This document shows, piece by piece, positions 252-62,145 of a stretch of DNA of 64,000 nt. Both the position numbers and the translations under genes were made by a program. The number at the start of each line of letters is the position of its first letter. Positions within the stretch are counted from its first letter, which is position 1. The notes beneath the pieces are model-generated. The model was not told the origin of the DNA. It searched no databases and was given only the letters and a program-made list of their open reading frames with translations. Source of the stretch: Asterochloris sp. CNOR1 (lineage: Eukaryota; Chlorophyta; Trebouxiophyceae; Trebouxiales; Trebouxiaceae); assembly GCA_963969365.1 (NCBI GenBank), contig OZ017759.1, positions 2,418,001-2,482,000 of the forward strand, given 5' to 3'.

Positions 252-3058
252 AAAGCGCTGTCCCGGAACCTGCAAGGGAAGCTGATCCAGATGCGCTGCC
301 TCATACAGTCCCTGCGATCCTTCTCCATGTTCCAGTCGCGCCTCCTGCTGATCATTCTGATCACTCTTGTCTATGGCGGTACCTACTGGAAGCCCGATCA
401 CACCTACAGGCAAGCTTGGCTGCTGTGCTTGGAATCCATCTCCTGTCAGGTGGTGGTATTTCAGGGCTCAAGTTGTTCTGTGGCATCTCGGATTGTTGTG
501 AGGCGCTGGAAGCCATCTGGAATTGAAGGCAAGCAGCGCTGGCTGCCTAAGAATATCTTTCAAGTCCTCATCGTGCGTGTAGATTGTGCGCTTTGGCATG
601 TGCAAGGAGGGGCAAAGCTGTTGCGACCTTGTGTTTTGAGACACAAATGCAGAACCCCTTACCAAAAAGGTGCATCGGAAACACTCTCAATGTCTTGCTT
701 GTTACTTCTGAATCCATTTTTGCTCTTGTGCTGCAGGGGCCTGGAGTACCGCCTGACAGTGCTCTTCCTGGCTTCCTGCGTGCTGCCGTCCCTGGCAGTG
801 CTTGCTCTGCCCGTGTATGCCAGCAACCACAAGGTAGGCACGCCCTTGATTGGGCTCTTTGTAGTGTCCTTTGTGCCGCCATCTGTGGCAGTGCTTGCCC
901 CTGCCCGTGTACGCCAGCAACGCCAAGGTAGGCGCGCCCTCACCTGGGCTGTTTCTGGTGTCCTTTCTGCTGCCTGCCCTGGAAGCGCTGGCCCTGCCGG
1001 TCTGCGCCAGCCCCACAAGCTGGAATGGAATGATGCAGCGCCCGCAGACATGGGCATGCTCGCATTGTGCACACCGTCTTTGTGGAGCTGGCCTGCCGCA
1101 CCGCAACCCCTGAGGGTGGTTGGAGAACTTCCATTTCTGGTTGAGCAACAACAAACAGTTGAGGAATGATTCGGTTTTGATTGCACATGCGGCAGTCTGC
1201 AGCACTGAGGCTAAGCAAAAGAGGTACAAACAGAAGGGAGCCCTCAGGCCACAATGGTCCCAAACACCAAGGGCCTCTCCCTGATTGTCAGCTGCAGGTT
1301 GCACTGTAGTCAGCAGGCTGCAGCAACTGTACAGTGCTGTCCCTTTTGCCTGCAGGTCTTTGTGCGTGAGCGTGACACCTGCAGGGAGTGCCCCTACGCC
1401 TTCCTCTCCAGCACAGTCTTCACCTCACTGCCCTACCTGCTGGTGGCTGCTTGCCTCACGGCCATTGTTCTCATTCCCATGGCTGGCCTCAACTCCTCAG
1501 GTGAGTGCTTACACTTCCCCACTTGCTGGTGGCTGCCCGCCTTTTAGCTGTGATGTCCACCTCAATGCCTCAAGTTGAGGCCACACCAGAGCTAGCCTCC
1601 TCGGTGTCTGCAGCCCTTCGAGTGCTGATCATTCAGCCAGATAAAGCTTGTGAGCATATGCCCAGTTCAGCACTGACTGATGGTGCCTTCACAAGGAGGG
1701 GCACAGGCAACCTCAGCCTGCCCACACACACAAATGTGGGAACCCCTGTACATGGCGTCACCCGGTGGACATGCAGCGTGAAGTCACCTCAGCCGGCACT
1801 GCCTCAACACCGCCTTGTCAGATGCACTTCCCAGTGGCTGCACCTCTGGTGCAGGCGCCGCGTGGGGCTACTTCATCCTCTGCACCTGGCTGACCTACCT
1901 GATAGCAGACGCCATTGTGCTGCTGATCAGCCTGCACGTCAAGCGGGAGCACATGTCTCTGGCAGGTAACAACCAGGGAGGTGCCAGACTTCCCAAACTT
2001 TCTGCAGTGGCACAGCCTCTTGCAGGGCTACATCGTTCCCACAATGTATACCATTATCACCACCCCCTCTCTGCAGTGGCGCTGGGCCTGTTTGGGATCC
2101 AGATTTTCTCCTGCGGCTACTTCTTTGGCAGCCAGCGGGGCCTGCAGCTGGCAGTGGGCACGCTGGCCTTCAGCTCGTATGCCTACCGCGGCCTGGTCAA
2201 GAATGAGCTGACTTCGAGTGCGCCGTGGGGCTGCCCCCAGGGGCGCTACAGCGACATCCTTCAGGTGAGCCTGAGTCGTCTGGTGCACAGAAAGCCTGCT
2301 GCGAGTCACCACATGTTCACCGCTGTCAGCAGACAGGGGCAAGAGTGCTTCAGGCAGCAGCTTCTCAACTACTCTGCACATTGCCACACCCGGTGCACTG
2401 GGCCTAACTGCCACATTGCGGGATGAGTGGACTTGATGGGAGCCTGCTGCTGGTGACAGGGACCTAGGCCCTGAAGGGCCCAGCCCACTTGCCCCGCTGC
2501 TGGCGTCTCTCCCAGCCTGGGAGCTGCTTGCTGCTACATGAATCCTGCGCCTGGCTGCTGTGTGGTGTGCACAGCGCGCGGAATTGCTCCAGCTGCCAGA
2601 GGCACCTGACTGATGCTAATGATGATGCCTGAGGGCTGCACTGCAGGCATGTGAGACCGGCTGGTACGCCGCCGGCCTCTCCCCTGCTGTGCAGCCTCTG
2701 CATCATCCTGGCTCTCGCTGCAGGTTGCTGCGCATGGACGGGGTGTCAGCGCGCTGAACTATGGTTCCCCGAAGTGTTCCAACATGGTGGTGGCAGCGAG
2801 AGGCGTCAGCACGACTGACCGCTCCTGTGTGGCCACTGACCTGATCCCTGCGCTTTGCCAAAAGTGTCTTTGTGCTGGCTGCAGGCGTCAGGGTGCCCAC
2901 AGCTGACCAGCCCGCAGGCCTACTCAGGCATCTCCCAAGACTTTGGTGTGGTGGTGGGCAGCCGGTGGGACTCGATCTATGTCCTGCTGGGCATGCTAGT
3001 GGTGTGGCGCCTACTGCACGCTGGTAGCCTGCTGTACAGGATCAGAGCTGTGTTGTGA
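252..3058 (+). CDS. ABCG-family ABC transporter, C-terminal membrane half (5' end outside window)
   Basis: Exons 252-409, 737-833, 1356-1500, 1855-1965, 2077-2264 and 2885-3058 join in one frame to 290 residues ending in TGA. The product looks like the ABC2-type membrane domain of the ABCG (white/PDR) family. It starts with the basic segment before the first membrane helix and a helix ending GGTYWK. It then has the family's conserved VFVRERDTC..PYAF stretch, in which ABCG proteins carry V-x-x-R-E-R, followed by several hydrophobic helices. The Walker/ABC signature domain must lie upstream of base 1. The first intron begins GCAAGC rather than GT. The exon ending at 833 is followed by two decayed copies of its own 3' end. 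Substrate cannot be told from sequence. A full-size or half-size ABCG are both possible because the 5' part is missing. Confidence 0.8.
793..1025 (+). repeat. Three-unit tandem repeat of the ABCG exon-2 donor junction
   Basis: Units begin near 793, 886 and 980 (period about 93). The first unit is the real exon end plus the start of the intron. The second unit retains an intact donor (CCAAG|GTAGGC, exon end 927). The third has decayed and lost GT at that place. Using the second donor would add 94 bases and shift the frame. Confidence 0.8.
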
Positions 3059-4046: not shown

Positions 4047-7000
4047 ATGCCCAGGGGTGGCGAAGAGTCTGACCCTGAGTACAATGCTAATGAGGACAGT
4101 CCCCATGCTGGCCAGGGTGGGGGCGCCTCCTTCAGGTGAGGCAGGAGCAGCCGGGACACAATCTCAGTGTGAACAGGCAGCACACAGCAATGCACAGCGT
4201 GCGCCAGAGAATGAGGAGGTGCCAGGAATTGGTACTGGATGCAGCCTCGTGCAGCCTCCAGCCCAGGCTGTGTGTAGCCCTGCACAAGCCTGCATGGGAT
4301 TCTATCCGCCCCATCAATGCCAGACAGTTGCCAGCCAAGTGCATGAGGCCAGACGCATCGCCTGTAGGCAGCAGGTTCTGGCATTCATGGAACGGGTGAG
4401 TAACATCTGCCCAGTTTGCCCTGGCACTGCTGGGCACAGCGCACCTGGCAGGTCTGAGGGTGCAGCAACAGCTTGGCAAGTGGCCACCTGCCAGCCACAG
4501 TCTGCTTTGGCTGTGCGAGGTGGTGGGGGCAATATCCTGGTCTGGCAGGTCAGGTGTGGACTTGAGGGTTTGCCATCTTATTCCTGAGATGGGCTCGCTT
4601 CGTGCGTGAATGTGGCTGTGCAGGCGCAGCATTTGGCTGACATCTGGCAGTGAGGACAGCTGGCATGTGGCTACCTCACATGAGAGACTTGCGCTGGGTG
4701 TGGGATGCCTGTGTGTGCTGGTGTAGCAATTGCCTGGTGTCTGGCAGTCTGGGCAGAACATGAGGGATGGCAGCTTTGCTGCTGAGATGGGCCTTCTTCA
4801 TGCACAATGTTTTGCAGGCGCAGCGACAGTGTGGCGTCTGGCAGGTCGGGGGGCGACTTGAAGGACAGTGACTACGCTGCAGACCGGCAGGAAGGGGAGG
4901 ACAGGCGCCCAGAAAGCCCACGCACCATGATGATCAAAGCGAATCTGACCAAGGTGACTTGCCATCTGCCAGACACAGACCGCAGTCTGCGTTCCGCAGA
5001 GTGACTGCAAAGCTGACAGTGGAGAGCTACCAACATGCCGATAGTGGACTGAGAATTGCCAGGGTGATTTGTTCGGGCTGCTGAGTGCCAGTCTCTTGTG
5101 TAGAGGGGGACAGAGCTGTGCTGAGCACCTGCTTGCTTGGGGTGGTGGCTGACTGCAGGCTGGCTTCACGGCCACAGCACCTTCCCAGTTGCACTGTTGC
5201 ATTGTCATGTCGACAGCGGGCCCGAGCCTTGATTCCGCTGAGTCTTCTGAGCACAGGGCAATATCCTGCTGTGTGCTGTGAGCTCGCCCAACTGAGAGGA
5301 CCTATCCTTCACACCAATGGGGAGCAGTCAATCTGCACAGACACCACACCTTGCAGAGACGAAGCAGTGATGCTGAGAGCTGAAATATGCAACTTGTGCC
5401 GAGTCATGACTGTCTACCCACTTGTATATACCTGACTGCAGGTCATGGCTGCTGGCGCCGTCTAGTGCATACCTGGCTTCAGGTCATGACTGCTGACACC
5501 CTGTTGCCCATATGTGGCTGCTGGGCAAGGCTGCTGGCACCTCAAGTCGCAATGCTGGTAGCAAATTGTGGCTGCTGGCAACTGCTTGCAAATGGTCGGC
5601 TGCAGGTCTTGGTGCTGAGACCTTCAGCCTTTGCAGCCGCATACTCTGCGCTGCCACCCACCTGCACAATGCTGGCTGCAGGTCATGGCTGCTGGCAATG
5701 TGGAGGAAGTAGAGCCAGCGAGGGGAGCTGCCAGCGCTGAAAAGGCTGTCTCCCGTAATAGGACCGCCTTCAAGAACCGCTCTGGCTACAGAGGTGTCCG
5801 TCAGGTGTGGCGACTTCACTGGGCAGCAGTCAGCCCACTGCAGCTGAGCAGTTCTTGCTGGTCAGCTTTGCCCCACATGTCATAGTTTCTGGGGGTGTGC
5901 ATGCTAGCTGCAGCTCGGCCTACATCATATATAGATAGTGTCATCACAGCCCTGAGGCATCATTGCAGGATCTGCTGTGCAATGCAGCAAGTGCTATGCA
6001 TCCTGAGCAATTCTAGCTGGCGCAAATCTGTCGTCGCTGGCAAAGTTGCTATGCTGCAGCAGCCTCAAAGCCTGCATATCTTCAGCAGGGCGCAGGCAGG
6101 CAATGCTTGATCCACCAGGCTGCATGCTACCCCGGAAGAACTGACTGCAGAAGCAATGCAGTGCTGGAGGCACAGGCCCTCTTGGGCTTACAGGCTGCAA
6201 CAGCAGATCACAGCTCAATCTGCTTTGCTGTGTGCTGCAGCGTCCCTGGAAGAAGTGGGCTGCAGAAATCAGGGATCCCAGCCGGTCGACACGGCGGTGG
6301 CTGGGCACATATGACACCCCTGCAGAGGTAGGCCTCACTGAATCCAGACAGAGGCCAAGCACTGCTGTGTTGGCCCTTCCAGGAAGACCTGCAGCTGGAG
6401 ACGCAAGGCATGCTTCAGTTTGAGTTGTCCCCTCCCCTTGCACTGCTCTGTCGGGTCGAGCTGCTTGTTCACACATGTGAGACAGGCTGCTTGACAAACC
6501 CGATACCTGGGCTTTGGAAAACGCCAGAGGCAAGGTGCTGAGCCTCTGACTTTGTGTTGCAGCCTGTTGTTGGAACTGCAGGCTGCCCAGACAGATGATG
6601 CAGCAGCTGGTGCAGTCTGTGTACCTGATGTTGCCCACTGCAGGCTCTCTGACTGTGCAGCTGCAGGTGCACTCCGCCAAGCTCTTTGCTCCTGCCCTGC
6701 AGGCCGCGCGTGCGTATGATGCAGCTGCTGTGGCCATCAGGGGGCCCTCGGCCAAGACCAACTTCAAGTATCCCTTCCAGCTGCTGCACCTCAAGCATCG
6801 GCGGGGCAAGGTGGGTGCGGTGCTGGCACACTGCCAATGCCTGCGCGTGTTCCAATGCGTGGCACCCGCACACATGGCAGCTTACCGGGCAGGAGCCCAG
6901 CCTGTCCCTGGGGTGCAAGGTCAGCACTTCCCATGGGCAGGCATGCCACCCGCATCTGCATTATCTTGTCTGGGTTTGGGGCCAGCCACTGGCGTACTGC

Positions 7001-10000: not shown

Positions 10001-13000
10001 GGGGCTGCAGCGGGTTGCTGTGAGTGCAAGTTTAGCTCGCTGCCTGGAGCAGTGCCCGATGAAAGGGGGCGTTGCAGCGACTTCTTTCGTGTCACCTGCA
10101 TGGCGTTCACAGGTAGAGGGGTCCAACGCGGGAGAGCAGCACCTGGTGAATGCATACCTGCCTTTTGCATGAAACAGTGATGGGACCAACTGAGGCTCTG
10201 CATCTGCTGGTTGCTTTGCATGAGGCAGTACCAGACTCACTGAGGGTGTAGCACTCGCTTTGCTACCTTGATCAGGTGTGCAGAGCTGTCGGACTTTGGC
10301 AGATTGTGGACCCCTGCATTGCACGTGAACGGTGCCCACTTGGCAGGTCCCGGTGTCCTGCAGCCGTCAGGCTGTCATTGCTTATTGCTCCGCCAGCCTC
10401 AGAGGATACATGGACCTCACAAGCTCAGCTCCCCGCCCAAGTCTCGCACATTGACATGCTATCAACCGATGTGACATGTCCTGCCCTGCAGAACATGGTT
10501 TTCCCTGAGGCACCCCCATTGAGCACAGCACTGGCCCAGCTGGGCGCCCCACAAGTCAGCCAGCAGCCGCTGATGTCCGCGCTGAGCCTGGAGTCGCATG
10601 GAGGGAGTGGAGGCCTCATGGCGGCCGCCACTGCTGGCGGGCCTGGCAGCCTTCTGGGCTCAGGCCCTGGCGGACCTCTAATGGTGAGCGACGGGCCGGT
10701 CTGGTGCATCTGGGTGGTTTTGCTTGTCATGCACAATCGTGTCAGCCATGGGGACATTGTGAAGGCAGTAGCCTGGTGACCTCGAGCCTTGGGGTTCTGC
10801 CCTGACGGTGTGCCATGGACATGTCGTCACGCTTGAAGCTGCAATGACGCACAGCAGAGCAAAGCCTGCTCCAGGGCTGCAGCAGGGCGCGCTTGAAGTT
10901 GTGCTGTACATGCGGCAACTGACATGATGGCAGCCAAGCTTTGGCTCCGACCCTGTCCTGGTCCATTCAGCAGCAGAGCATGCAGGAGAGACGGTGTTGC
11001 ATGGTGTGAAACCATTTAGCCCTGAGTGCAGCACCTGGTCTCTGAACTGACTACACCACGTGCAGTAGAGTGTTGTGCTCAAACATCTGCCTCCCACCCA
11101 GGCAGCCCGTGCTGGCTTGGTCTCTACCTGTCTGCTTGTAGCAGTACATGCCCAGCCGGTGTTGCACTGCACATCTGGTGTGCAGGGAGGCCTGGGCAGC
11201 TCGCGAGGCAATGCAAGCCCTCAAGGGCTGCTGTCCCACCCCTCTGACGGGGCCGCTCCCCCCCGCGGGGGCTTAGCTGGAGGAGGCCTCGGAAGGGCAG
11301 ATGTGGGGTCTGGCAGCCTCATGAGCACCAGCTCCATGAGGGAGGACAGCCTCATCGGGCAGGGCTCAGGCGCCCCTGAAGCCGGCGCTGAGGGTGCAAG
11401 CAGGGAGCAGAGGCCCAAGCGGGTGAGCACATGATCGAGGCATGCTTGCTTTAGTGGGCGGCCCTGTCTGGCAGGAGGCATGGCCTGCCTGCTGCTACCC
11501 TGCAGACAACCTGTGGCGGTGCCATGCCTGGTGCATGCCTAGACAGAGGTGACCAAGGGACTCCAACAACCTGGCCAGGCTCGGATGCTCTCTGTGGAGA
11601 CACCCTGCTGGCCTGCCCACACCTTTGCCGTCAACTACCCTGCTGGCAGCTCAAGTGCCATGTACTGCGATGATATGCGGCACCTCCGTCAAGCAGCGTG
11701 CAGCCATTGTCAGACTTTGCACTCGGGCATACTTTGCATCATGATGAACCCCCAGAGCACCCCAGCCACACCCTCTGAGCCGGCGGGCACTCGAGTCAGC
11801 ATTGCCCCTGTCATGCAGCCTGTCCTCCCTCTCTGCATTGCGTGACCCAGCTGGCCTCCAGGCAGTTCCATGCAAGACAGACTGCCCAACTACACACTGC
11901 TCTGCTGTGCAGCCCCACTCCCCCCTGCTGCACAGTGTGGCTGAGGCACTCCCAGTCAAGCAGGACCTGCAGGCATCTCACATCAAACAGCCCTTCCTCT
12001 GGTCTGCAGCTGGGCATAATTAAGTTGGACCTGCAGGCATGGTGCTTCACACACTGCCCTGCTCTGCAGGCCGACTCCCCCTCTTTGCACCGCGTCGCCA
12101 AGTCGGCCTCGCTCAAGCAGGACCTGCAAGTGCGGCGGCGCCACGCGAAGACCCTTGATGCCCTGATGCTGGGCGCAGAAAGGGCTCTGGGCCACCGAAA
12201 CTCCTCAGGTGGGCTGGTGCTGCGGCCTGCTGGAAGAGGGAGCTGGCCTGTCAGCGTGACATGTCGCCACTGCCTCATGTGGGTCTGCAACACTGAGGTC
12301 TTGCAGAGGCTTGGGGGCCAACACTGTCTCGCACATGCAGCTGAGCAACGATTCCCTGTCGCAAGTGTTGGTGCTCAAAGCCAGGCTGTGTGCTGCCTGG
12401 TTCAGGCAGGGCGGCCATGGCGTCTGCAAGCTCCTACTGCTTAGATCTGCAAGTTGTTTCGGCATGATACGTCTGTTGGCATGCTGGCTGTGATGTTGTA
12501 CACTGGCACCGTGTACTCACTGCTTGCACACAGGCACTCTGTACTCACCACCAACCCTGCAGATGTGTCTGATTTCCCAGCTGAGCACAATTCGTTTTGG
12601 CTGAGTGATGGGGCCTCCAGCATGTTTTGAGCTGCTGTTCCCAGAGAATCACCCTCTGCCACCTGCCAGAAGCATGCTTGTCAGGTGCCGCAGCCCTTGT
12701 CGATACCAGCAGCAAGGCCTCCATCAAGCCCTTGCGTGCAACCTGAGCCCTCACATCTGCAACACTGCCATTGGCTGCACACCTTGTGCAGGCATTGGCA
12801 ACGAGAATCTCATCGAGGCCTCTGTGCAATCCAAGCCCTAAAAGCTGCCAATTCACACACACGGTGTGATCTGCTGAACAGGTATCAGCAGCGAGGCCCT
12901 AATTGAGGCCTTCCGTGGCGGGGGCTTACTGGGCAGCGGCGGAGCCCAGCAGGCTGGTGGCGCAGCTGCTGGCAGCCAGAGCGGGCCAGAAGGCATGGAC

Positions 13001-35068: not shown

Positions 35069-35306
35069 TGCTAGTGCATTCATTTCATAATCTTATTGCA
35101 CCAGCAAAGCATTCACTACTGACTGTCTAACGTATAGGATGACCAGATTGTAACCAGGGGGGTGGGGTGGGCGTTCAGACATTGCAGTGTTGCACTGGCA
35201 AGATAAGCGCGTGCACATCAGCGAGCTTCCTCAATGCTGACATCAGGAGGCATGCGCAGCATGCAATGCAATTTCATGCAAGCAGCAGAACAACTAAGCC
35301 TGGCTA

Positions 35307-47300: not shown

Positions 47301-50300
47301 GTTCCCTGCCATGCTGCGCAGCAGGGCATCTGTGTCCAGGATCCCGACGACTGCGGCGTCCACAGCTGTGGCCGCTGAGCCCGCACTGTCATCCATCTGG
47401 CTAACGGGGCTGGCTGGCTCCTCATCCTCAGCTCCAGAGCCAGCGCGCTCTGCAGGCACAGGTGGAGCTGAGCAGATTCAAAGTCTGGCACAGCGGGATA
47501 TGCCATGAACATGCTGGGTGAGCTATTCCAGCGTCAGCGCGCGCTCCACTCTGTCCAAATGAGAAGGTCTGATGGGGGCCAATGGGGCTGGCTGCTCTCT
47601 CGTCCTCGGCTCTAACCTCAGTGGGCTCTGCAGGCATGGGGGACATTGGCAGATGCAGAGCTACTGCCCTCTGGCGGCTCAGGGCGGGCTTCAGAGGTGG
47701 AGGACCCTAACCTCCACAGCAAACACACTCTGCAGTTACATGAAGGCGGAAGAGACTGCAGAAACCGTGATCAGCGCTGCTAGACTTTGCCTGGGGCCGG
47801 CATGCTCGGCTGCACAGGCACTGCAACCAGCAGGCAGAGGGCCATGCAGCTGCAGAGACAATGCCCTCAGCAGACCCATGGCCGACAGTGGATTTTTGGG
47901 TGACCTGGCTGGTGAGGCTTCAGACCTGCTCGGGGTGCCTGCTTGCCACTGGACTGACTATAAAGGATTCAGAGCAGCTGAAAGCATGCTCTGTGGGCAG
48001 CTGCGTGTAAGGCGGATGCCCGGAGTTGTATTCTTGACCCATCAGGCCAAGTGCCCGGTCATCCAGTTCCCACAGCTGTGCCTGCTGATAGGGCTAAGTG
48101 CCTTGTTGGGGCAAGCAGTGAGCATTGTATTGCTTGAAGCTTAGTACTCAGACGATGCAAACGCAGAAGTACCAGTCAACGGTTCTCCTCTCTGCAGCGC
48201 CTGGCCCACCTGCTGCAGCTGCCTGCTCCTCAAAGTCCAGCTCCGCGTCTGTGTTGTGCAGCTGCACATCCCCGGGGACTGCCGCGGCGCCGCTGGCTGC
48301 CCCGTACTCCACCGCCCCCACTGCGCTCTCCAGGTTGGACCGCGCCGCGCACGACAGGCGCAGGACGTCCACCCCTGGATCTGCGCCAGAGGGCTGGGAC
48401 TGCAGGACAGCGGCGGCCAAGCTGCCGCTGGGCAGCGCGGGGGCCTGCTGCGCCTGCAGACCATTGCGCTCGATGAAAGCCTGCAGCAGAGTCAACGGGT
48501 CACTTGGTTGACACATGCATTGACATGCGTGATGCATGCCATCAGATGAGCCGCCTCCATTTCAAGGGCCGGAAGCACAAGCTGGCAAGCTGCTCATGTC
48601 AGGCTGCTTGCAGTGTGGGGAAGCAGAGGCAGGCAGAGGTGGGCTTTTCTCAAGAATTGCTGGAAGCAATGCTCCTGGTCAGTAGATGGAGCCAAGTGCC
48701 AGCTGGAGGCCTGGCACAGACTGACACACAGACAGGCTCCCACCTGCAGCATGGGCTCCGCAGGCAGGTCCCGCTCTGGGAGAGCTGTGTTCCAGAAGGG
48801 GTGGCTGCACAGCTCCTGCATGCAGCAGGGGCAGGCTGTCAGAACGGCGGCCTTCCCAAGCGCCCTCAGCCTAGACACGGGTGCCAGACAGGAGGCTTTC
48901 TGAGCTGTGCGAGTTCCACTGCAAAGTCCAGCGAGGTGACAGGCACCTGTCACAGGTCAGGCTGTCCTGGTCTGCGCTGGTACGCTGCAGGCTCCGGCAG
49001 CATTGCACATCAACTCCAGAGGATTTGATGAGAAGCAGGTGCCTTAAGAGGTGCCAATTGCTGCCAGAAGACTTTGGCTGAGAGGCAGACACCTGAGGAG
49101 GTCCCGTGTGCTGCCAGAAGGTTGGGCTGCTGGGCTGGCTGGTGCTCACCTTCCAGGATGCCCGCACTGCCGGATTCTTCTCCAGAAGGCGCTGTATGAG
49201 GTGGATGAAGTGCTCAGAGGCGCCTGCAGCACGAGAGGCAGCTATTCACCTAACAAAGATTTTAGCTTATTTGTCAATTGCGCATATGAAGGCCAGCCGC
49301 AATGTGCAGGGGTTGCCGTTGGTGCTCCCTGCAGCTCCCTGCCAGCAGGCAGGGGTGTTGGCCACCCCCAGCAAACAGTAACTTCCTGATGAGACCTGCA
49401 GCTCCCTGCTAGCAGCCAAAGGTACTGGCCACTCCTAGTAAACGACAACTTAAAATATTGATGGGGCATCCGCCACAATGCAGTCTGCTCAAGCCTGTGC
49501 ACGCCTGCATGTGACATAACAGCTTCTGATATGTGATGCTGCTGGGGCTGTGGCTGACGTGCCAATGACGAGGTCGAAACAGAGAGCAAGCAGCGACACC
49601 CCAACACAAACGAAAGATGGTGCTGGTTACAGTGGCCAGTAGGCAGGTAGCATTCCCTTCCACTGCCTTCTGCCCGCCAATCAACGGTGAATTAGCGGTC
49701 CTGATCAGTGCAGATGGCTCTTGTTTGTTTACTGCATCTGCAACTTGTTCATCTTCTGGCAGAGGCGCTGGCTCTGTGGCCAGGAAGTCGTTGGCCCAGT
49801 GGACAGACGAGGAGCTGACAAAGGGCGGCTTGCCGGCCGCGCATTCATATAGCTCTCATCAACTCACTGCATGTGCATGACCCACACCTTCTGGCAGAGG
49901 CGCCGGCTCCGTGGCCAGGATATCGTTGACCAGGTGGGTGAGCGAGGAGCTGACAAAGGGCGGCCTGCCGGCAGCGCACTCGTACAGCACGCACCCCAGC
50001 GCCCACAGGTCGGAGGCTGTGGAGTGGGTGGACCCGTCCTGGAACAGCTCGGGGGCCATGTAGCAGGGGGTACCATGCTTGGCCTGCAGGCAAGAAATAC
50101 AGTTATCTGCGAAGGCGCTGCCCCTGGCTGTCTGGAAGAGCTTGGGGCTCAACAGGCACTGCATGGGTCTGCAGAGCAGGTCACAGCCTGCTCAATTCTG
50201 CAATGCCACCACAGCAGCATACAGAGGTGCAGGCACTACAACCGTGATCTGACCCTGCGAAGTCTGCTCAGCCTGACTGGTGGCATTGTCTGCAGGGGGC

Positions 50301-53207
50301 CTCAGTTCTGCCCAGCAAGTCAGCGGCACGGCACATCAGACTTAGCAATCCCTGAACAAAACGCAGCATTGTTGGCATCACCCTTGCAGTCACATATTGT
50401 TCTTTGGCAATTGCTGGTGTGTTCCCAACAGCGGCAGCTGCTGCAGGGGACCTTGCTGGCGTCCAGGAGACTCTGTGGGAGGCCAAGGAAGGCATAGCAA
50501 TCATTGCAGCCCTTTGAAACACGATGCCCCTGCTGGTGTTGAGGCCTGACAGGCCAGCAGCTGCAGTGTGACAGCAGCACACCCCCCCAAATTACATAGA
50601 TGTGACCACAGCCACAGTCAAAGTCCAGTAGCTGCACTGTGACGGCTGCACCTAGCCCCAAAGCTACACATTTGTGCCCACAGCCTCACGGATGGCCATC
50701 ACAGCAGGGGAGTCTTGTCCTCACACAGCGCCTTTCAATACCAACACCAGCAGCACAGGCAGGACAAGCTCCAAAGCCGCCCAGTGCACGGCGCTCCAAA
50801 CTCTCAGGTTCTAAAGCCCTAAATCACTCACCGACGGCAGCTGCTGCAAGGGCGTCTTATTGATGTCTGAGAGACGCCGAGAGAGCCCAAATCCGCCCAG
50901 CTTGATGCGCCCATTCTCGTCCAACAGGATGTTACTCGGCTTCAGGTCGCAGTAGATGACGCTGCTGGCGTGCAGGTACTGGATGGAGATGACCTGCAAG
51001 GCTGACATGCATAGGTGAGCTACACATGCCGTAAGGCAGGACAGCCATTTGGCTGCAGCCAGTGGGCAGCTGCTGGATGCTGCTGGCGCGTAGGTACTGG
51101 ACAGGGACGACCTACAAGGCTGACACGCACAAGGCAAAGACTGTTTGTCTGTGTCCCAAGCCCAATGTCTGGCGTGATGAAGCCCTCTCCGGCCTTCCAC
51201 GGCAAAGCATGGTCATGCACCTTTGCTGCACTTTGTGCTGCAGTCATGGCGGCAGCCGTGGCGGGTGGCATTGGTGCCATCACACAAGTGTCTACCGCCA
51301 CACATCGTGCCAGTCCAGCTGCATTGCTGGTGGCGGTGGTGTTCTGAGGCAGGCTGTGTTTTGCTTGTGTAGGTCCTCGCACAATTTCACTGCCTGCTGA
51401 GGGTACTGGCATTTCTATCAGTACCAGAAGAGGTCTCAGCAGCTCACCAGGTCACGTGCAAGGTCGTGAATGGAGGCCTCCGGCAGGCGCATGTCCTGGC
51501 GCAGCAGCGACATGAGGTCTCCCCCGACGCAGTACTCCAGAATGAGCCACAGGTGGTTGCTGGTCTCATACCTGCAGCCACAGAGGACACTAGGGAGCCA
51601 TCACACTATGTCCCTTTCTTGTCGCAGAGCGGCTGCTGCTTTTGCTGTTCATCCCTTCAGGGGTGTCTGACCCTTGATTGCCAAGGTCTGCTGTGCTCTG
51701 CTGCTCCTGACTGATAAGGCCGCCCCAGCCTGCTGGCAAGTGCCACTGGCAGTCTGATGTCACCCAGTGAGAAGCCATGCAGGCACACAGCAGGCTGTCA
51801 CCTGAGCAGCTGCAGCGTCATGCAGGAAGCAAACACCTGGTGCAGCCAGCAAGCTCGCCAGCCAGCTGCCGCATGTGGCACCATCTGTTGGCAGAGGTGC
51901 CTGCACACATTTGGACAGGGGCCAACAACACTGCTCCCTGTGCTCACCAGGCATAGAATTTGAGGACGTTCTCATGGTCCAGCGCGTGCATTGTGCGGAC
52001 CTGCAGGCCAGGGCAGGAGAACCTTGACCGGTGGTGGACACCTGTGTGAAAATGCAGCCCTGTGTGGGCACTTTGAACAGCATCGGCCTGCCAGCCAGCA
52101 GATGTTGACCTCCTCACAGCCCCTGGTGGCCTGGTATAATTCAGCCGCCTGCAAGCTGAGCTTGCCAACCAAGCCGACCGACATCGCCGGCAGGCACCAC
52201 AGCTGAGTTCCCCGTGCCGCTGGGCTGTGGGAATTTGCAAGCATGCATTCATCCAGCAGGCTGACACTGCTGACAGGTCCCTCACTTGTGCAGCATGAAC
52301 AAGTCTGCCATGTGGGGGGTAAGCTCTGTGTCACGCCCAAATCAGCACATTAGCCATGAGGAGCCGTCAGAAGCCACACCACAACATCAGCAACCTCAAG
52401 CTGCCCCCTGAGCCTTGATGCATCAGGTGGTGAATACCTGTCTTGAGGCAGCACAGACAGCCTCAGCCAGAATAAGAAGAGCAGCACCTATGTTGACAGG
52501 CAGCTTGGCCCTTGCATCATGCGGGCACGTGGGCCGCCATGGAATACTGCTGCAGGCAGAATGCTGCTGCTGCCCATTTGTGCGGCTGCTGTGCAGGCAA
52601 GGCTTGGCCCTTGCATCATGCAGGCAGGCAGCCTTCCAACCTCCTGCAGGCCTTGTGCCCCAGGACTTTGCTTGATAACTCTTTCACGCATTTCTTGAAG
52701 GCTTTAGAACCCCTGCCAGCACGGATGCCTGCAGCCCCACTTCAGCTGCCAACAGGCTTTATCTCTTGCAGCGTCTCTCCCTCCTGCCATACAGTGATAC
52801 TGCGAGGGTATGCAGCCTTGCTGGCCATGAACCTTGCTGGCCATGAACCACTGCTCGCAGGCACCCAGATGAGCTCCCACCTCCTGCAGCACCCGTGCCT
52901 TCTGCGACTTGTCCACGCTCTTGATGGCATAGTACTGGATGGTCTTCTTCTTGCGGCCCTTGTACACGACTGAGTGCTTCCCGCGTCCGATGGCTTCATA
53001 GATGCTGCAGGCAGGAGGAGTGGGATCATCCCAGGTAGCTGCCTGTGAAGCAGTAGCTTGTCTGCTTGCTTGCCGTACCAGCATGCTGGCAGATTCTGCA
53101 GGCTATGAACGCTGCTACCATGTGTATAGTGCTGCTGCTGAAATGCCATGTCAACAGTTGCTTGGTCTCGTTGTCCAGCAGCCCCAAGCTCACTGGTACT
53201 GATTCAT
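35307..53207 (-). CDS. RUK: RUNKEL/ULK4-type protein (pseudo)kinase with ARM/HEAT repeats
   Basis: Minus-strand exons: 53207-53194, 53004-52881, 52000-51948, 51571-51448, 50993-50832, 50083-49888, 49223-49150, 48815-48744, 48480-48210, 47449-47291, 46566-46439, 45507-45409, 44941-44743, 44262-44153, 43883-43791, 43432-43207, 42531-42428, 41888-41739, 41256-41158, 40802-40590, 39895-39695, 38879-38698, 38149-38005, 37260-37147, 36583-36413, 35537-35307; 1237 residues. The kinase domain spans 1 to about 265, starting [14 protein letters not shown]. The 14-base first exon encodes MNQYH, restoring the known RUNKEL N-terminus. Lys33 (YAIK), Asp121 (YCDLKPSN) and CYMAPEL are kept. The DFG aspartate is Gly139 (LGGFGLS). 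The LIWH motif and many helical ARM-like repeats follow. Plant RUNKEL works in phragmoplast microtubule organisation during cytokinesis; animal ULK4 is a pseudokinase linked to cilia. An extra 24-base exon at 39268-39245 is possible. Confidence 0.9.
35530..35830 (-). repeat. RUK: Copies of the acceptor junction of the last RUNKEL exon
   Basis: The real boundary, GCCTGCCAGGCCGCCTGCAGCAG (plus strand, 35524-35546), recurs in decayed form near 35670-35700, 35750-35780 and 35830-35855 within the intron. Each has a C/G-rich GCCTGCn core followed by a minus-strand TGCAG. Confidence 0.6.
36540..36690 (-). repeat. RUK: Three copies of the acceptor junction of the exon 36413-36583
   Basis: The motif GCAGRCTGGGCAGCARRGCYRCACACTSC occurs at the real exon start (36541-36570) and twice more at about 36613 and 36656 in the upstream intron. 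The two intronic copies share GCAGGCTGGGCAGCAAGG. Confidence 0.75.
39300..39700 (-). repeat. RUK: Array of donor-junction copies of the exon 39695-39895
   Basis: The plus-strand pattern GCCCCACCTGCCCATCCA plus GCACAGCAGCT (real: 39690-39745) recurs near 39605-39650, 39525-39570, 39430-39475 and, most decayed, 39325-39350. Several copies keep a minus-strand GTGGGG/GTGGGC donor. Confidence 0.7.
39842..40300 (-). repeat. RUK: Four copies of the acceptor junction of the exon 39695-39895
   Basis: The real copy is 39842-39906, with CAGCTGGCTGTACTGGCACA and GAGCCCTGCAGGCACAGG. A close copy lies at 39968-40031, a diverged one at about 40120-40160 and another at about 40250-40295. Spacing is about 125-140 bases. 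Confidence 0.78.
41820..42050 (-). repeat. RUK: Tandem copy (115 bases) of the acceptor end of exon 41739-41888
   Basis: The block from GCGGGGAGCCCGCCCTCCAG through CTCCTCCTGCGCCAG to GAGTCAAGACTG is repeated at offset 115 (41947-42042). The copy has a few substitutions and small indels. The minus-strand acceptor CTGGCGCAG becomes TCTGGCGCAG in the copy and would still work. Confidence 0.8.
44505..44815 (-). repeat. RUK: Duplicated donor-side segment of exon 44743-44941
   Basis: The stretch GCAATGYAGGTTGCRTGGCGCACCAGCAGGCCCAGCACAGAGGCCA occurs in the exon at 44762-44808 and again in the following intron at 44514-44560. About 45 bases are nearly identical, followed by divergence. Confidence 0.85.
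45475..45925 (-). repeat. RUK: Recent three-unit tandem repeat of about 200 bases at a RUNKEL acceptor
   Basis: Units start at 45478, 45677 and 45892 with GCTGGGAGCACTTGAGCATC. Over the first 35 bases the second unit is identical to the real exon end and acceptor (exon 45409-45507). The rest of each unit (CTTCCCCCTGAGTC, GCAAGGTAGCAGGGCAAC, CTGCCTCTGAGTCTATCAT) is also conserved. The third unit is more diverged. Confidence 0.92.
47560..47650 (-). repeat. RUK: Decayed copy of the acceptor and start of exon 47291-47449
   Basis: The intronic stretch AATGGGGCTGGCTGCTCTCT followed by CGTCCTCGGCTCTAAC and TCTGCAGGCA mirrors 47402-47456 of the exon and its acceptor. Offset is about 182 bases. Confidence 0.75.
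49753..49853 (-). pseudogene. RUK: Partial copy of a RUNKEL kinase exon, still open in frame
   Basis: One hundred bases match 49888-49988 of the functional exon at about 83 percent by direct count. On the minus strand it reads [14 protein letters not shown] and ends [11 protein letters not shown] without a stop. The matching donor GTGTGG is replaced by ATGAAC, and the upstream part of the exon is missing, so it is not a complete alternative exon. Confidence 0.8.
50955..51130 (-). repeat. RUK: Duplicated acceptor junction of the RUNKEL catalytic-loop exon
   Basis: The segment GACGCTGCTGGCGTGCAGGT then ACTGGATGGAGATGACCTGCAAGGCTGACA (50957-51006) has a copy at about 51077-51126 in the preceding intron. 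The copy's acceptor is altered (CTACAAGG). Confidence 0.78.
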
Positions 53208-54580: not shown

Positions 54581-57500
54581 ATGGGCTTCACCCTGTGGAC
54601 AAGTCCCAACAATAAGAATGCCTATAAGGCGCTCATCACAGCGCAGTATGTGGGGGTGAAGGTGGACGTGCCTGCCGGATTTGAATTCGGCAAGACGAAC
54701 AAGTCCCCAGAGTTCTTGAAGAAGAATCCCAACGGCAAGGTGGGCCTGGCCGCTGTGGTTCTCTCGTAGCTTATCACCAGTCTGGCAGCATGCAGACATG
54801 TGCTCTGGAGACAGCAGCCTTCCAGCTGCTGTGGCAATCAGCGGTCAGGTGCAGTCAGAGTAGCATGTGAGGTCAGACTGCTGCACAAGACATGGTCAGC
54901 AGCCTGCTCTTGGCACCAGCTCAGGGCAAGTGCTTGGCCACAGGTGGTGGACCAAATCGTGATTGTAGGCATAAGTTTGTGCGCAGAGGCTTTTTTGGGT
55001 TCTGACCTACAGCCATGGGCAGTGTGGTGGCCATCTTCATTTTCAGTCTCCTGCATGGCAGCGCACTTGACTTCCTGTGTCACATGGCTGCAGTGCCTGT
55101 CTTCTACAGAGCAGGGCAGCCCTGACATTTGGAGACGCTGGGTGGTGTGCCCTGTGAGTGCAGGGTTCACTGGTCACTGTACCCCAGGGAGCTGTACCAT
55201 GTCAGACCTGATCTGACCTGACCCACGAGGCACCATGCGCATGCGCTGGCCGCTTAGCAGCAACGCCACGTCCTTGTGCACAGTCCCTGACATGTACGAT
55301 TTTCCTGCTGCGCAGATTCCCCTGCTGGACACCCCTCAGGGCTCAGTCTGGGAGAGCAACGCCATTGCGCGGTATCTCGCCCGCCAGGCAGACAAGGGTC
55401 TCTTTGGCAAGACACGCATTGACGAGGTCAGCCCGGCGCATGCATCTGCTGCTTCCCTGCCTGAAAGCTGTGGAGGCCGCACATCAGTGATGTCAGGTCA
55501 GCGCCTGTGCTGCTGACCTGCTCTGGAGCTTTGAAGGCGCTCATGATACGGGTGAGACCAGCAGTTCCTCTGTTGTTGACCTGCTGACTGGCTTTGCTTG
55601 CCTATGATCAAGGTCAGCCCGGCATCTGCCTCTGCTGCTGAAGTGCGCACAAAGCTGTGGACCTGCTCAACTTCAGGTCAGCCTAGCATTTGCGTCTGCT
55701 GCTGACCAACTTGGAGCTGCCAAGCTTGGCCAGTCGATACCTGCACTGCAACTGGAGCTTGGCCAGTCGATTCCTGCACTGCAACTGGAGCAGCCCACAG
55801 CACTAAATGCGTGCTGTGCTACTTCAAAGAGCCACAGTCATGCTGGGGGCCTGTCAGCTGCGCCAGAGGGTTGGAAACATCACAAAAGTCTTGGCCAATG
55901 TGTGATGCTGTTGGAGCACATTGCAATTCAATGGCCTAGCCTGCTGCTGGACACTGAACACATAGCTGTGGATGGGTGCCTTCAGCAGCCGTCTAATCTC
56001 AGCCTCTTGGGCAGGTGTTTTTGATCTGCTGCAAGTCCACATGAGCGGAGGACTGCTCCAGCCACCTCTTCTGTGAAGGAGGACCTTGCTCGACAGCTCT
56101 TTCTCTCTGCTGCTGCAGGCCCACGTGGAGCAGTGGATTGACTTCTCAACCACAGCTGTGGATGCGCCACTGTGCTCCTGGGTGTACCCCCTGCTGGGCT
56201 TCATGCCCTTTGACAAAAAGGTGGGTGGGGCGCTACAGAAACAAGGTCTGGTACAGAATCTGATGGGCTTGGAAAACCCCATTGTGTTCCTATATGAGGG
56301 CTTTTCCGGCAGTGCTGCACAGCAAGAAGCATGCTTGGAACCCGTGCCAGCTCCATCTCATGTGCGGCTGCTGTAGGCAGCCAAGGTAGTGGTAAGGAAG
56401 GCCTTGAATCCACTAGAGTTTGTTGGGCACATGTCGGATGTTGCAGAAGAGGGAGGCGGCCGATCCAGCTGTTAGTGCAGCCTCCACTGCGTTGAATACA
56501 GTTGCACTGAGCTGGTGATCTGACTGCTGCAGAGGGGGGCCTTGGCTGCGGTGGCTGTCAGGCAGGTCCTGAAGGGTTTCACTGCACTGAATGTGTCCCT
56601 GGCTGCTGCAGAAGGAGGAGGCAGCCGAGACAGCTGTCAGGCAGAGTCTAAAGACGCTGGAGACCTATTTGAGCAGCCGCACCTTCCTGATCGGGGAGCG
56701 GGTGACGTTGGCCGACATTGTGGGCGTCTGCAACCTCCTCAACGGCTTCACAAATGTGGGTTGTCGAGGTTCATAGCCCTTCAAAGTGCAAGTCTGTGTT
56801 GGGACAGGGAGGCCCTGCGGAGACACTGGCAAGCATGTGGGCATCCGCATGTACTCATCGCATGATGGCGAAATGCTGAGCCGCTCAGGCTGCATGGCTC
56901 CCTCTGTACATTGTCTTACTGCCGGAAGTACTGCAGCCAAACAATGATGGCGCTGGTGTACCTTATGCATACGTCTGTCATTTTTCAGTGGCTTCCAGAT
57001 GGTGAGCACTGAGGCTGCATGCCCATCCGCACACCGCTGCACTGCTCCAGCAGTCCACCAGAATTCACTGCATGCTGGCAAGCAGACTGGAATCTTGCAC
57101 CCTGCTCAGCGGCTCGAAGTCGGTGAGTCAAGGTTTCAGGGCCTGCAGAGTGTCAGCCTGTGAGGTGCGGGTTCCCACACAGCACGCTGTGCCTTGTCCA
57201 GCACATTCAGCAGCCTTGCACAGCCTGGCTGCAAGGCTCCATCTGTATCTGCTCAGCCTATCTCAGCAAAACCAAAGGTGGTGCAGTCAGATATCATGGG
57301 CGCTTCAAGGTGGCGAGCCCTGCACATTGTCGCCGCTTCAAACCTTATTGACACCAAACTCACTCTAAACTTATTGCAAAGAGCCCAGGTGACCGCCTGG
57401 CAGGCGCCCTCAACCTGCTCCATGGCTTTCAAGCTGTGCTTGGCATGGCTGCAATGCCCCATTTGCACTGCATTGCTAAAGCAACACTGCAGAGCTCACT

Positions 57501-60500
57501 GAGAGTCAGTCTGGCATCTGCAACCTGCTCAATGATTGGGCCCCCACCTCTCTGCAGTTGGTGCTGTGACTGAACCATGCCTCCAGCACAGCCACGGTGC
57601 TGCAGGTGTTTGATGAGGCCTTCCGCAAGGACTTCCCCTGCGTGACGCGGTGGTTCCAGACCTGCGTGCACCAGCCAGCCTTCAAGGCCGTTCTGCATGA
57701 GGTGCACCTCTGCAACGAGCGGAAGCAGGGCAAGGGTGAGCAGCATGGTAACTCTTATTGGGGGTTCCTTGTTGCCTGCAGCAGGGACAGCTGTGCTGGA
57801 AGCGCACGCAGGGGCAACAGTGTGCGCTTCATGCTGGGGTGACGCCTGGGGAGCCAGGTCTCATTGCATGCAGCTGTGCATGGAGGGGCCACCAGGCACA
57901 AGTCTTGAGTAAGCCGCATACAACCTCGGTAGTCAACCCAGATTGTTGACTGGGTATGCGAGAGAGTCCACCTTCCTTTACAAAGGGTGAGCTGTGTGCT
58001 GGTCATAGCCTGAGGGAGGGCCTTGTTGCACAGTGGACAGCTTTGCTCAGAACGCTTGGCAGGGGATGGCTGTGCGACTTGATGGCTGTCTGCCTGTGCA
58101 GCAGGTGGGCTGATTGCGCAATATATGTGCAACTCCTGTCTAGCTTGAATCTGCGGCACCAGTGTTGCAAAACCTGCTGCAGACAGTTTCGGGGCTGCTC
58201 ACTGCTTACCTGACAGGCTGCATACCAAGGCTGCCTCCTACATGCATGGCTTGGCTGGCCTGTGAGTGGTGTGAGACAGACGCATGCCCGTCGCATAGTG
58301 ATGCTGCCTGCCAGAGGCATGGCTTGCATGGCCTGTGAGCGCCATGTGCTGCTTGCATTGATAGTGTCCTGCTGTGCTCCAGAACCAGCCACGCTGACTT
58401 GCTCAATCTGACGGACATGTCCCTTTGGCATGCCGGCATGCTAGTGCCCAGTGCTGAGCTGCAATCTGGTCCACTGCCATGCAGCTGGCGAACAGCCTGC
58501 GAAGCAGCAGCCTAAGAAGGAGCAGGCACCCAAGCAGCCGAAGAAGGAGCAGCCCAAGAAGGTGAGCATGCGTCTCAATCCACAACGCTAGCCTGGACCT
58601 CGTGGTTGGCGTTGTCTGCGTAACGCATTGTGTGGCCTGGCCAACTCTGCCATTGAAGACCAAGGCCTGGACAACCCAGAGGAGGGCCCCTTCTGCCTCA
58701 GTCTTGACCTTGGGGGGTCATGCTCCTCATGGCACAGCCAGCGCCCAACTTGCTTTTGGTGATGGTTCAGAACCACCCGATCTCCTAGTGTTATACATCC
58801 AGCTCATTAGCGACATCAGACGTACTAGCGCTGCCAATGCTGTGTAAGCCTTCCTGCAGCAGTCCCAGCTGCTGGACCACCACTTCAAGGCGTCCTCTTG
58901 TGGTGTCATACATGCAGCTCATCAGCCACATCAAATAGGTGTGCGCTGCAAACACCACATCAAGGCGTCTTGTCCCAGTGGCTTGGCTGATTGCACATGT
59001 CCTCCAGTCTAGCTGTAGACCTTTGAAGTCAGTACTGACTGCAGGTCAAGGCTGAGGCGGGAGGCTGTCCCACAGCATTCCGCATGGGCTTGGTTTGCGC
59101 TTGGCGCTGCAGCACATTGCAGGAGCACCCTTGACGGCAGCGGCACGCTTAGTCTGTGGGTCGTATGTCATAGGTCAGAGCTCCATCTGATGCCGTGTTG
59201 TTTTGTGCCACCTGCAGGACGCGCCAGCAGTTGCATCAGCAGGCAACAAGGCATTCATGCCACGCTTGCAGCGCAGAAAGCCCCAAGACCTTATGCTAAG
59301 TTGTTTTGTACAACCTGCAGGTGCTGCAGGTTCCTTTGCATCCAAACCCCAGCTTGCAGTCTGCCACCTGCAGGGTGCCCAAGCAGTCGCGGCAGCAGCA
59401 GACGAGGAGCACCCGTTGTGCTGGCAGCGCAGGAAGCCCCCAGACCTGATGCTAAGTTCCCTTCCTTTTGATGCCACCTGCAGGCTCAAGCACCAGCAGC
59501 CAAATCAGCAGGCAACAAGGACCTCGCGCGGTCCAGCGACAAGCCCACCCTGAGGTTCATTCTCTTCTGTTCCACCTGCAGGAGGCGCCAGCAGCCGCGT
59601 CAGCAGGCGACGATGAGCCCAAGCCGGCCCCCAAGCCAAAGAACCCTCTGGACCTGCTGCCCCCCAGCAAGATGATCCTGGACTCATGGAAGCGCCTGTA
59701 CTCCAACACGCCCAGCTCCAGCTTCCGCGACATCTGCATCAAGGGCCTCTGGCAGGGCGCCGACATCCCTAAGAGCCCCAACAACGAGGTGACTTTTGTT
59801 TGACCAATGGTTTCATTGGTGCAGGATCGGAGAATCAAGGTGTCAGCAGCAATTTCTTTGAGCCTGGAAGCTGCCTTGGCTGGGACTGCATGTTCCTGTC
59901 CATGTTGCAGTAAGTCTATGTGGGCTATGTGCCTTGCATCCACTCAATGTACCTACCAAATCTGCATACTTCCTACCTGCACCTCCCAAGGGCCACGACC
60001 TGAGTCTACAGGCATTCTTGCTGTCGTCATGTTGCCATCCTGTCGCCTGAGGCACTGCCCGCAGCACCTGAAGGCCCATCATGCAAACTGTTGCAGTTTC
60101 GCTGACACCTACCATGCTGTGTCTGCAGCACTTTGAGGGGTACGACCCTGAGGGTTACGTCATGTACTTCTGCGACTACAAGTACCCCGAGGAGAACACC
60201 GTCAACTACATCGTGATGAACAAGGTGGGTGACTCACTCGCTTTGCTCCTTTGGTCTGGGTGACGCGTCTTGGCCTGATGCTGCACAGCTGCTGCTGCTG
60301 CTCAGCTGTTTGGCACACTCCTTATGAGCACTTTAGATCTTGCTTTGCCCTGGCAGATGCATACATACATGGCTGCACAGCAGCCGCTGACTTTCAATCC
60401 CAGCTGCAAGCACGGTGCCCTGCCCGCAGGAGAAGTGCTGGGTCAGAATTTGTACATACATAATTGCAACAGAAACTGTGTCCCGCAACCAGCTGCAGGC

Positions 60501-62145
60501 TCTGTGCCCTGCCTGCAGGAAGGATGCAGGGTACACCTGCACATACCTACAGCATGTACCTACAACACTGTCCCACATCCAGCTGCAGCCTTTGTGCCTT
60601 GCATGTAGGAGAAGCTCTGGTTTAATCTGTACATGCCTGCCTAGCTGCAGCAGAGCCTTGTCCCGCATCCACCTGCAGACTCTGTGGCGTGCCTGCAGGT
60701 TGGCGGCTTCCTGCAGAGAATAGACTACGTCCGCAAGCACGCCTTTGGCGTGATGTGCATCCTCAAGGTGAGCTGATGGCCTTCAAGTTGTATGGATTCA
60801 GGGTGTATGGATGGGGTGGGCAGCTCTGTGCGACACACCTGTCTTCAGCTGCATGCAGCAAGCGGCCATGCCATCAGCAAGGGACCGGTCAGCATACGGC
60901 TTTGCTTCCATGTGCTGCCTATTGAGACAGGCGCAACAGAGGTCACCATAGCGCTTGCAGCTGGCGGCTGGGGGCCCCCAGTAACACAGCATGAGAGTGA
61001 GCGTTTCCCGAGCTTGTGACCTCGCTGTCTGCGCAGCACGGCATAGCAGGGTAGCCTGTGCTTGCCCCACATTGTCGTTTGGTACTCAATATCCAGTTTG
61101 TGCAAACAGGTCTCTATTGGGGGCTGCGAAAGCTCGCAGCGCAGCTTAATTTGCTGTGCTTGCTTCTGTCAGTGGTGCAGCATGCTTTTGAAAGCAAAGG
61201 TCACTCCTGCCTTTATGTATGCCATTCAGCAATAGCTGCGTCCAAAACCTGGCTGTGCAGGATGGGGATCAGTTCCCCATCCGCGGCTTCTGGATCTTCC
61301 GTGGCAACGACATCCCCCCCATGATGAAGGAAGAGTGTTACGACCTGGACCTGTACAACTGGAGCAAGGTGGACATCAATGACGAGGTAAGCCGAGACTG
61401 TGAGACGGCTAACGGCAACTGGAGCTGTGCCTGAACTCCATGCTTGGGTGGTGTTTGAGGGCAGTGAACCTGGGCTGCAAGATTTAGCAAGTTCCAGGCT
61501 GAGGCTTTGAAACGTGCTTCCTCACCGATTGTGGTCCACCCTGTGGCTCACATCCAGGGTAGACGTGAGTGTCGCAGTGAGCTCTGATGCTGTAGTCTTG
61601 CACTGGCGTGCCACTAGGCGTGTCACGCTGCCAAGCCTCGGCAGCAGCTCTGAGTCTGGGACCAGGTCCGAATACTAAGAAGTGGGACTCTGTGAGAAGC
61701 AGTCCTTGCTGGCAGGGCTGTGCTTCTGAGCATTTTGAGTGCTACATTAAGCTGCGGTGCTGGGAGCATACCAAAACATCTGCAGCTGCCTGTGGTGTGT
61801 TTGTGACATGCGAAGCGGGTGCGGGAGCGGCACTACTGATTGCTGTGCTCTGTGTCAGAATCTGGTACATCAATGTGCTGCCTGGAAGCGGGCCACTGCC
61901 TAACATGTAGCTGACCATGGTGCAGCCGTAGGGACATTGTGAGCATGGTGCAGATTGCATCCCCGACTCTAAACAGCTCCAGCTGCTGGTGCCCTTGGCT
62001 CTCTGCCAGATGCAGGTGCCCAGACAGGCTCTGACTATTTGATGCACATGTCATGCAGGCCCAAAAGAAGCGCTTGGAGGACATGTTGGCAGAGGAGGAC
62101 AAAATCGACAATCTTGAGCACATTGAGTGCAAGGTGTTCAAGTGA
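54581..62145 (+). CDS. EEF1G: Translation elongation factor 1B gamma (eEF1G)
   Basis: Eleven exons: 54581-54739, 55316-55426, 56119-56220, 56612-56755, 57606-57735, 58485-58561, 59582-59788, 60129-60224, 60699-60767, 61261-61386, 62059-62145; 435 residues. Residues 1 to about 215 form a GST-like domain: [20 protein letters not shown] is the cis-Pro and Glu-Ser glutathione-site region, followed by a C-terminal helical part with [14 protein letters not shown] Lys/Gln/Pro/Ala-rich linker ([14 protein letters not shown]) joins it to the conserved EF1G C-terminal domain ([47 protein letters not shown]). It ends CKVFK. The protein scaffolds the eEF1B nucleotide-exchange complex for eEF1A in the cytosol. 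ATG context is strong (GAAGCCATGG). Its introns are full of duplicated splice junctions, although the protein is intact. Confidence 0.95.
55420..55695 (+). repeat. EEF1G: Copies of the EF1B-gamma exon-2 donor junction
   Basis: The donor GAG|GTCAGCCCGGCGCATGCATC (55424-55443) recurs as AAGGTCAGCCCGGCATCTGC near 55610, TCAGGTCAGCCTAGCATTTG near 55674, and more weakly near 55495. GTCAGC is retained in all. Confidence 0.75.
55733..55798 (+). repeat. Near-perfect 33-base tandem duplication
   Basis: Two adjacent units (CTTGGCCAGTCGATACCTGC then ACTGCAACTGGAG) differ at one base. They lie inside intron 2 of EF1B-gamma and do not include a functional splice site. Confidence 0.93.
56435..56665 (+). 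repeat. EEF1G: Three copies of the EF1B-gamma exon-4 acceptor junction
   Basis: The functional boundary CTGCAG|AAGGAGGAGGCAGCC is at 56606-56626. Copies at 56441 (GTTGCAGAAGAGGGAGGCGG) and 56527 (CTGCAGAGGGGGGCCTTGGC) continue with CAGCTGT/GGCTGTCAGGCAG as in the exon. Period is about 80-85. Confidence 0.82.
59180..59625 (+). repeat. EEF1G: Five-copy array of the EF1B-gamma exon-7 acceptor junction
   Basis: Acceptors CACCTGCAG (or CAACCTGCAG) followed by G-rich GCGCCAGCAGC-like exon starts occur at about 59212, 59318, 59366, 59477 and the real 59573. A linking segment (AAGMCCYCAGACCTTATGCT-like, then AAGTTnnnTT) is also repeated. Four non-functional copies precede the true exon start at 59582. 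Confidence 0.88.
60395..60710 (+). repeat. EEF1G: Four-copy array of the EF1B-gamma exon-9 acceptor junction
   Basis: Units beginning with CAGCTGCAGnCTSTGTGCCY then TGCCTGCAGG occur near 60402, 60490, 60579 and 60669 (period about 90). The last holds the true acceptor at 60698. Linkers share CnTGTCCCRCATCCA. Confidence 0.85.

Follow-up and report, generated by a model that had tools for sequence, protein, structure and literature searches.

Introns in a 64,000-nucleotide stretch of the genome of the green alga Asterochloris sp. CNOR1 (contig OZ017759.1, positions 2,418,001 to 2,482,000; hereafter the window) contain direct repeats of their own flanking exon-intron boundaries, which raises the question of whether duplication in this genome is tied to splice junctions. 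An earlier note on this DNA had proposed such a tie, observing that repeats abound at junctions and are far fewer in the rest of the introns. The first part of this observation stands, as the repeats at junctions are real and far above chance, but the second does not: local duplication occurs throughout the genome, at junctions and elsewhere. What we see is probably a background of short tandem duplication that is retained by splicing, and any added preference for intron edges is mild at most.

The material comprised 314 kb, i.e., the 64-kb window (57.7% G+C) and 25 random 10-kb loci (20, then 5 more) of the same genome (56.4 Mb in 21 contigs). A gene finder was trained on these data, since the genome is without annotation, and single weak exons may be wrong. 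Its first version was discarded for calling 67% of bases intron and its second for collapsing into micro-exons. With the third version, the signals at the donor (AG|GTGAGC) and the acceptor (CTGCAG|G) were sharp, and 442 introns were predicted in the 314 kb, along with 174 donors and 195 acceptors that passed as confident. The acceptor consensus is strict throughout (T 0.89, G 0.84, C 0.93, and G as the first exon base 0.79).

Local repeats found by blastn self-comparison (score of at least 34) were direct in 168 cases and inverted in 2, compared to 0 and 1 in shuffled sequence. This tally understates direct repeats because blastn loses those near the main diagonal, including the pair 45477/45677, and a custom ungapped detector was adopted for this reason. 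It yielded 119 repeat clusters, each classed by its best pair alone, and zero matches in order-6 Markov sequence of equal length. Low-complexity and simple repeats had been removed before counting (9/128 in one screen and 8/180 in the other). The window contributes 42 clusters (6.56 per 10 kb) and the 250-kb control 77 (3.08 per 10 kb), so that cluster density in the window is about twice that of the control loci. The best pair lies off confident exons in 85 of the 119 clusters (70 with a looser exon cut-off), at odds with the claim of far fewer repeats away from junctions.

Individual junctions were assessed with a swap test, which compares the alignment between each junction flank and its own intron (at least 200 bp long) with alignments to 400 null targets from other introns, p≤0.005 being counted as positive. 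Positives comprised 28/148 donors and 37/167 acceptors or, by location, 27 of 75 junctions in the window (about 0.4 expected) and 38/240 outside; among confident predictions, about one junction in three is thus affected in the window and about one in six in random loci. This bears out the earlier count of at least eighteen affected junctions, and 20 of the 27 positive window alignments cross the splice site. Two named examples, the array at 761-1019 (94-bp period, donor 833/834) and the three copies at 45477-45937, were both found; the junctions of these examples, at 834 and 45508, are outside the 27 positives, the exon at 45508 having scored 4 with a cut-off of 5. In the second example, calling the 45478/45677 pair nearly identical was generous (87% over 69 nt). 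Exon-only queries, free of intron motif, were still positive in 16/148 and 26/167 cases, and intron-only queries adjoining the junction (introns of at least 320 bp) in 6/101 and 10/116.

Mid-intron pieces (introns of at least 360 bp) were positive in 33/250 cases, 21/86 in the window and 12/164 outside, again incompatible with a scarcity of interior repeats; the one exception that had been allowed, at 55733, is indeed a young interior duplication away from any junction (Table). Inverted queries were positive at only 2/315 junctions and 3/250 mid-intron pieces. An earlier, smaller swap test (donors 14/96, acceptors 24/114, mid-intron 6/108, unlabelled 13/155) had given a stronger junction contrast than this larger second one. 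Positivity climbs steeply as more intron is available (odds ratio 3.4 per 100 bp, 2.24-5.96), as if duplication lengthened introns or longer introns merely offered more room.

The structure of the units speaks to their origin. All 11 complete copies with an identity of at least 0.85 abut, with an overlap beyond the unit of -2 to +5 in 10 of them and of 20 in one 2.4-copy array. Among these, the pairs L016:191-407 (108 bp, 100%) and L009:822-1174 (176 bp, 98%) in the random loci and those at 55723, 36599, and 52816 in the window have overlaps of -2 to 3, while incomplete young edge pairs also occur (L011:5834 and L002:8580). The first two of these pairs are very young and could be used as strain markers. 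Abutting young pairs fit the fill-in of staggered breaks with end joining better than slippage between long repeats, and staggered-break repair, one of the mechanisms proposed earlier, is compatible with the duplications. Slippage may account for units of at most 26 bp, which make up six of the 11, but its proposed form at CTGCAG-rich boundaries is not borne out: junctions holding CTGCAG were no more often positive than those lacking it (acceptors 23/110 with and 14/57 without; donors 3/27 and 25/121). Searched against the 56-Mb genome, units 739-930 and 45480-45700 matched only themselves and their neighbouring copy, and query 49750-49990 only its own place, although these match counts are lower bounds because only the best candidates are scored. 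The three single-locus units are therefore not mobile elements, and the others are presumably alike in this respect. In the copies, exon sequence continues across the splice site into the intron, which excludes spliced RNA or lariats as their source.

The direct orientation of the repeats, the adjacency of the 11 young copies, and the locus specificity of the three units point to frequent tandem duplications, ranging in size from tens of bases to a few hundred, that probably result from fill-in and rejoining of staggered breaks; older pairs, which can be aligned only in part, would share this tandem origin. Such duplications, found in random loci as in the window, would fall on exons, edges, and intron interiors alike. 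Those internal to exons would mostly be lost because they alter the protein, and few exon-exon events are seen. When a duplication crosses an edge, by contrast, one intact exon with its splice site would stay in place and the other copy be buried in the intron, so that splicing may tolerate the event and it may persist. Edge pairs may also remain recognizable for longer than interior pairs, as their exon-side copy is conserved. The buried copies, which show no coding-like pattern, would then drift neutrally, with a decoy splice site lasting until mutated, and repeated events would build multi-copy arrays and longer introns.

How far the association with junctions exceeds this background is the harder question. 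Rotation of the exon map gave 20 edge-straddling clusters against 7.3 expected and few exon-exon clusters (2 against 6.2, P 0.04; 3 against 8.5 with looser exons, P 0.014), with wholly exonic copies (12 against 11.3) and interior ones (85 against 94) closer to expectation. Taken alone, this pointed to junction specificity. Yet typical units are about 115 bp long in introns of about 350-420 bp, and for this geometric reason edge crossing is often expected. We therefore simulated retention on real introns under eight parameter sets, with tandem units placed evenly, exonic events purged, and the exon half decaying more slowly; the introns used numbered 220, each 100 bp or longer with flanking exons that passed a loose score of -4, and they contain 49 of the 119 clusters. 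Of evenly placed events in introns, about 30-50% cross an edge. The simulations remove much of the apparent specificity and leave a part. A process exclusive to junctions is not supported, as interior intron DNA is duplicated too and geometry alone often crosses edges.

Several results weigh against a pure background of retained duplications. Exon-touching events number 28/49 (12/28 in the window and 16/21 outside), while the simulations predict 13.5-20.7/49 (z 2.2-4.7), and outside the window the higher observed share compares with a simulated 0.32-0.56. Stricter exon cut-offs give 13/18 and 7/9 there, introns with two confident sides give 15:11 against a simulated 0.40-0.76, and a first, cruder simulation was also about twofold too low. 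What is left over is a 1.4-2-fold junction excess that is model-dependent and unexplained. Furthermore, the exon part of edge events is no more alike than the intron part (0.819 vs 0.826); simulated events show the same near-equality, but at identities of 0.88-0.94, so that the real events are of an age that the model fails to match. Alignment is also only partial for the majority of pairs (median L/d 0.36). The only set without an excess is the looser one with a single confident side (25:30 against 0.70-0.91 at exon rates of at most 0.5), and this set undercounts exon contact.

The leftover excess is what a boundary-tied mutational process would predict, for example breaks at RNA:DNA hybrids or where transcription stalls at splice sites. 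Exon-intron boundaries would then be true hot spots of tandem duplication, perhaps through transcription-coupled breaks, with introns growing from their edges and gaining decoys. We regard such a process as unlikely, and hot spots in this strict sense as equally doubtful, although the evidence is divided. In its favour, besides the rotation and the leftover excess, junctions outside the window are more often positive than mid-intron pieces (raw odds ratio 2.4, Fisher p 0.013), as they are overall (1.7, p 0.025; 1.66 with a bootstrap 95% interval of 1.03-2.85 when adjusted for motif content, target length, and window). The contrast within the window, however, is not significant (1.7, p 0.12). 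Among clusters with identity of at least 0.90, straddling is elevated with the looser exon cut-off (6 vs 2.4, P 0.024) but not clearly with the strict one (3 vs 1.4, P 0.13), and exon-touching clusters are not significantly in excess under either (6 vs 4.1, P 0.2; looser 9 vs 5.9, P 0.11). Moreover, the 4 of 11 complete young copies that lie in introns of the retention set are all interior. On balance, the link to junctions is mild, mostly ordinary duplication with an unexplained remainder, and with a remainder of 1.4-2-fold, comparing strains could put a mutation bias linked to junctions to the test.

A further possibility, that copies are retained as alternative or back-up splice sites or exons, seems very improbable. 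The splice dinucleotide is intact in 16/21 copies, but about 14 would be expected at 82% identity, so that its retention is about as overall identity predicts. Mismatches by codon position (74/352, 47/353, and 71/354, or 0.21, 0.13, and 0.20) are lower at the second position, without an excess at the third, and the spacing is a multiple of three in only 9 of 28 exon-touching events, hence without frame preference. The copies do carry potential decoy splice sites, but without sign of selection or activity.

Even less credible is that the similarity merely reflects a common CTGCAG- and CAG-rich composition. Interior copies lying 30 bp or more from exons are indeed enriched in CTGCAGG (35 vs 17.3) and CAGCAG (84 vs 48.3), though the control motif CAGCTG is enriched too (36 vs 20.0), and positives are more frequent among mid-intron queries that contain CTGCAG (14/63 vs 19/187, p 0.019). 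In the 33 clusters without an exon within 100 bp, CAG/CTG is more frequent overall (304 vs 247), but CTGCAGG (8 vs 6.4) and CAGCAG (19 vs 18.6) are not enriched; old acceptor copies may explain the CTGCAGG richness of interior copies. In regression, CTGCAG has an odds ratio of 1.1 (0.66-1.7). The null of the swap test is drawn from introns in which these motifs occur as well, inverted matches do not exceed chance although CTGCAG is palindromic, and Markov sequence yields nothing, so that the similarity does not fall to CTGCAG content, the outcome that the earlier note had named as refuting it, and exon-intron boundaries are directly duplicated as it had claimed. Finally, introner-like elements or reverse-transcribed lariats or introns inserted at junctions, also considered in that note, are the least probable source of all, as no supporting evidence was found, exon and intron are contiguous and colinear in the copies, inverted copies are nearly absent, and the three tested units match no other locus.

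Related events are on record. In the potato RdRp gene, a tandem duplication over an intron-exon boundary is reported to have made a new intron whose splicing is seen in RNA reads (PMC4974935). The tandem unit likewise combines a partial exon with the splice site and adjoining intron, but the copies described here are buried in introns that already existed. Intron gain by tandem duplication has been reported too (PMC3443670, PMC2891723), and our cases resemble it (PMC3443670, PMC4974935) as within-gene duplications that involve splice signals. Unlike in the AGGT model of intron gain, an intron's own donor and acceptor are not alike beyond chance (3/98 at p about 0.01 and 6/98 at p≤0.05), and there is thus no sign that these introns arose by such duplications. 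In mouse and human cells, small tandem duplications are reported to form by fill-in of staggered, induced breaks, with more microhomology in those from theta-mediated joining than in most of them (PMC8355091). The direct, adjacent copies with little microhomology seen here are similar, but their origin is deduced from old copies in one genome rather than from induced breaks. Our findings are a tally of a known event type, not a new mechanism; what they add is the frequency, within a single genome, of buried copies without intron gain, together with a retention model accounting for most of the association with junctions. Among the literature matches listed (titles and abstract openings), none described a survey across a whole genome of duplications that straddle junctions and lie buried in introns, which is weak evidence of absence. 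Ordinary mutation that splicing tolerates can thus lengthen introns and collect decoy splice sites.

Table. Duplications and associated features in the window.
Feature	Position	Strand	Evidence
ABCG transporter exon with its 3' end and donor repeated downstream	737..833	+	gene model; ABC2_membrane E 3.2e-12
Array of 94-bp period over donor 833/834; second copy retains AAG|GTAGGC	761..1019	+	repeat alignment
Exon piece repeated 86 bp downstream in the intron behind donor 1500/1501	1426..1542	+	repeat alignment
Acceptor 4817/4818 region and upstream copy at 4584-4630, AP2 gene	4584..4824	+	36/43 aligned; 0/400 null scores as high
Array of 41-bp period and 240-bp spaced copy up to acceptor 5681/5682, AP2 gene	5416..5696	+	Tandem Repeats Finder (TRF)/alignment, swap test
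Acceptor 12069/12070 region and copy 157 bp upstream	11892..12128	+	62/79 aligned, p 0.0025
28-bp array beside donor 18606 and 50-bp spaced copy across it, vacuolar sorting receptor gene	18470..18621	-	
Young intronic 43-bp tandem duplication, 93%, near acceptor 36583	36599..36682	-	
Acceptor 38879 region and intron copy 246 bp off, kinase gene	38820..39137	-	56/72 aligned
Exon piece 44759-44808 repeated in downstream intron at 44509-44558, 94% identity	44509..44808	-	
Three-copy unit, spacings 200 and 215	45477..45937	-	repeat alignment
Acceptor 47449 region and copy 178 bp off; copy retains TGCCTGCAG|agc	47399..47660	-	
Exon end at donor 49887 repeated (104 nt, 83%) at a place 135 bp inside the intron	49750..49988	-	
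Acceptor 50993 region and copy 118 bp off	50958..51129	-	45/54 aligned; 0/400 null scores as high
Identical intronic 16-bp tandem duplication	52816..52849	-	
Young interior 33-bp tandem duplication, 97%, without junction	55723..55791	+	
Array, spacings 156, 208, and 364, ending at acceptor 59581/59582 of EF1G-domain exon	59201..59611	+	EF1G E 5.2e-31
90-bp array before acceptor 60698/60699, EF1-gamma gene; aligned copy on intron side	60400..60699	+	

The array at 761-1019 has 2.4 copies by TRF, or about 2.7 if matches from 761 are counted. The unit at 45477-45937 consists of about 31 nt of exon, acceptor 45508 (45507/45508), and about 170-185 nt of intron, and the copy at 49750..49988 (minus strand) has lost the donor GT. 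The vacuolar sorting receptor gene also holds an array of diverged copies at 21448-22056 (spacings 89, 139, 222, and 338), the edge of which is overlapped only by a weak predicted exon (21378-21486, score 2).

The large genes in which these repeats had been noticed are backed by Pfam matches for 8 of the 10 predicted window proteins, with 2 lacking any match. Domains comprise ABC2_membrane (ABCG transporter), AP2, vacuolar sorting receptor, HEAT_ULK4/ARM_RUK, Pkinase, GST, and EF1G; one of the eight matched proteins, the middle kinase model, has sub-cut-off HEAT matches only. The matches to vacuolar sorting receptor, AP2, and RUNKEL point to the green lineage, given where such proteins are found. 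The GST and EF1G models presumably form one EF1-gamma gene, and the kinase and HEAT models likely form one RUNKEL/ULK4-like gene. This kinase with HEAT and ARM repeats, at 35307-53207, was divided by the gene finder into three models, one of which begins inside a decoy copy near 45911.

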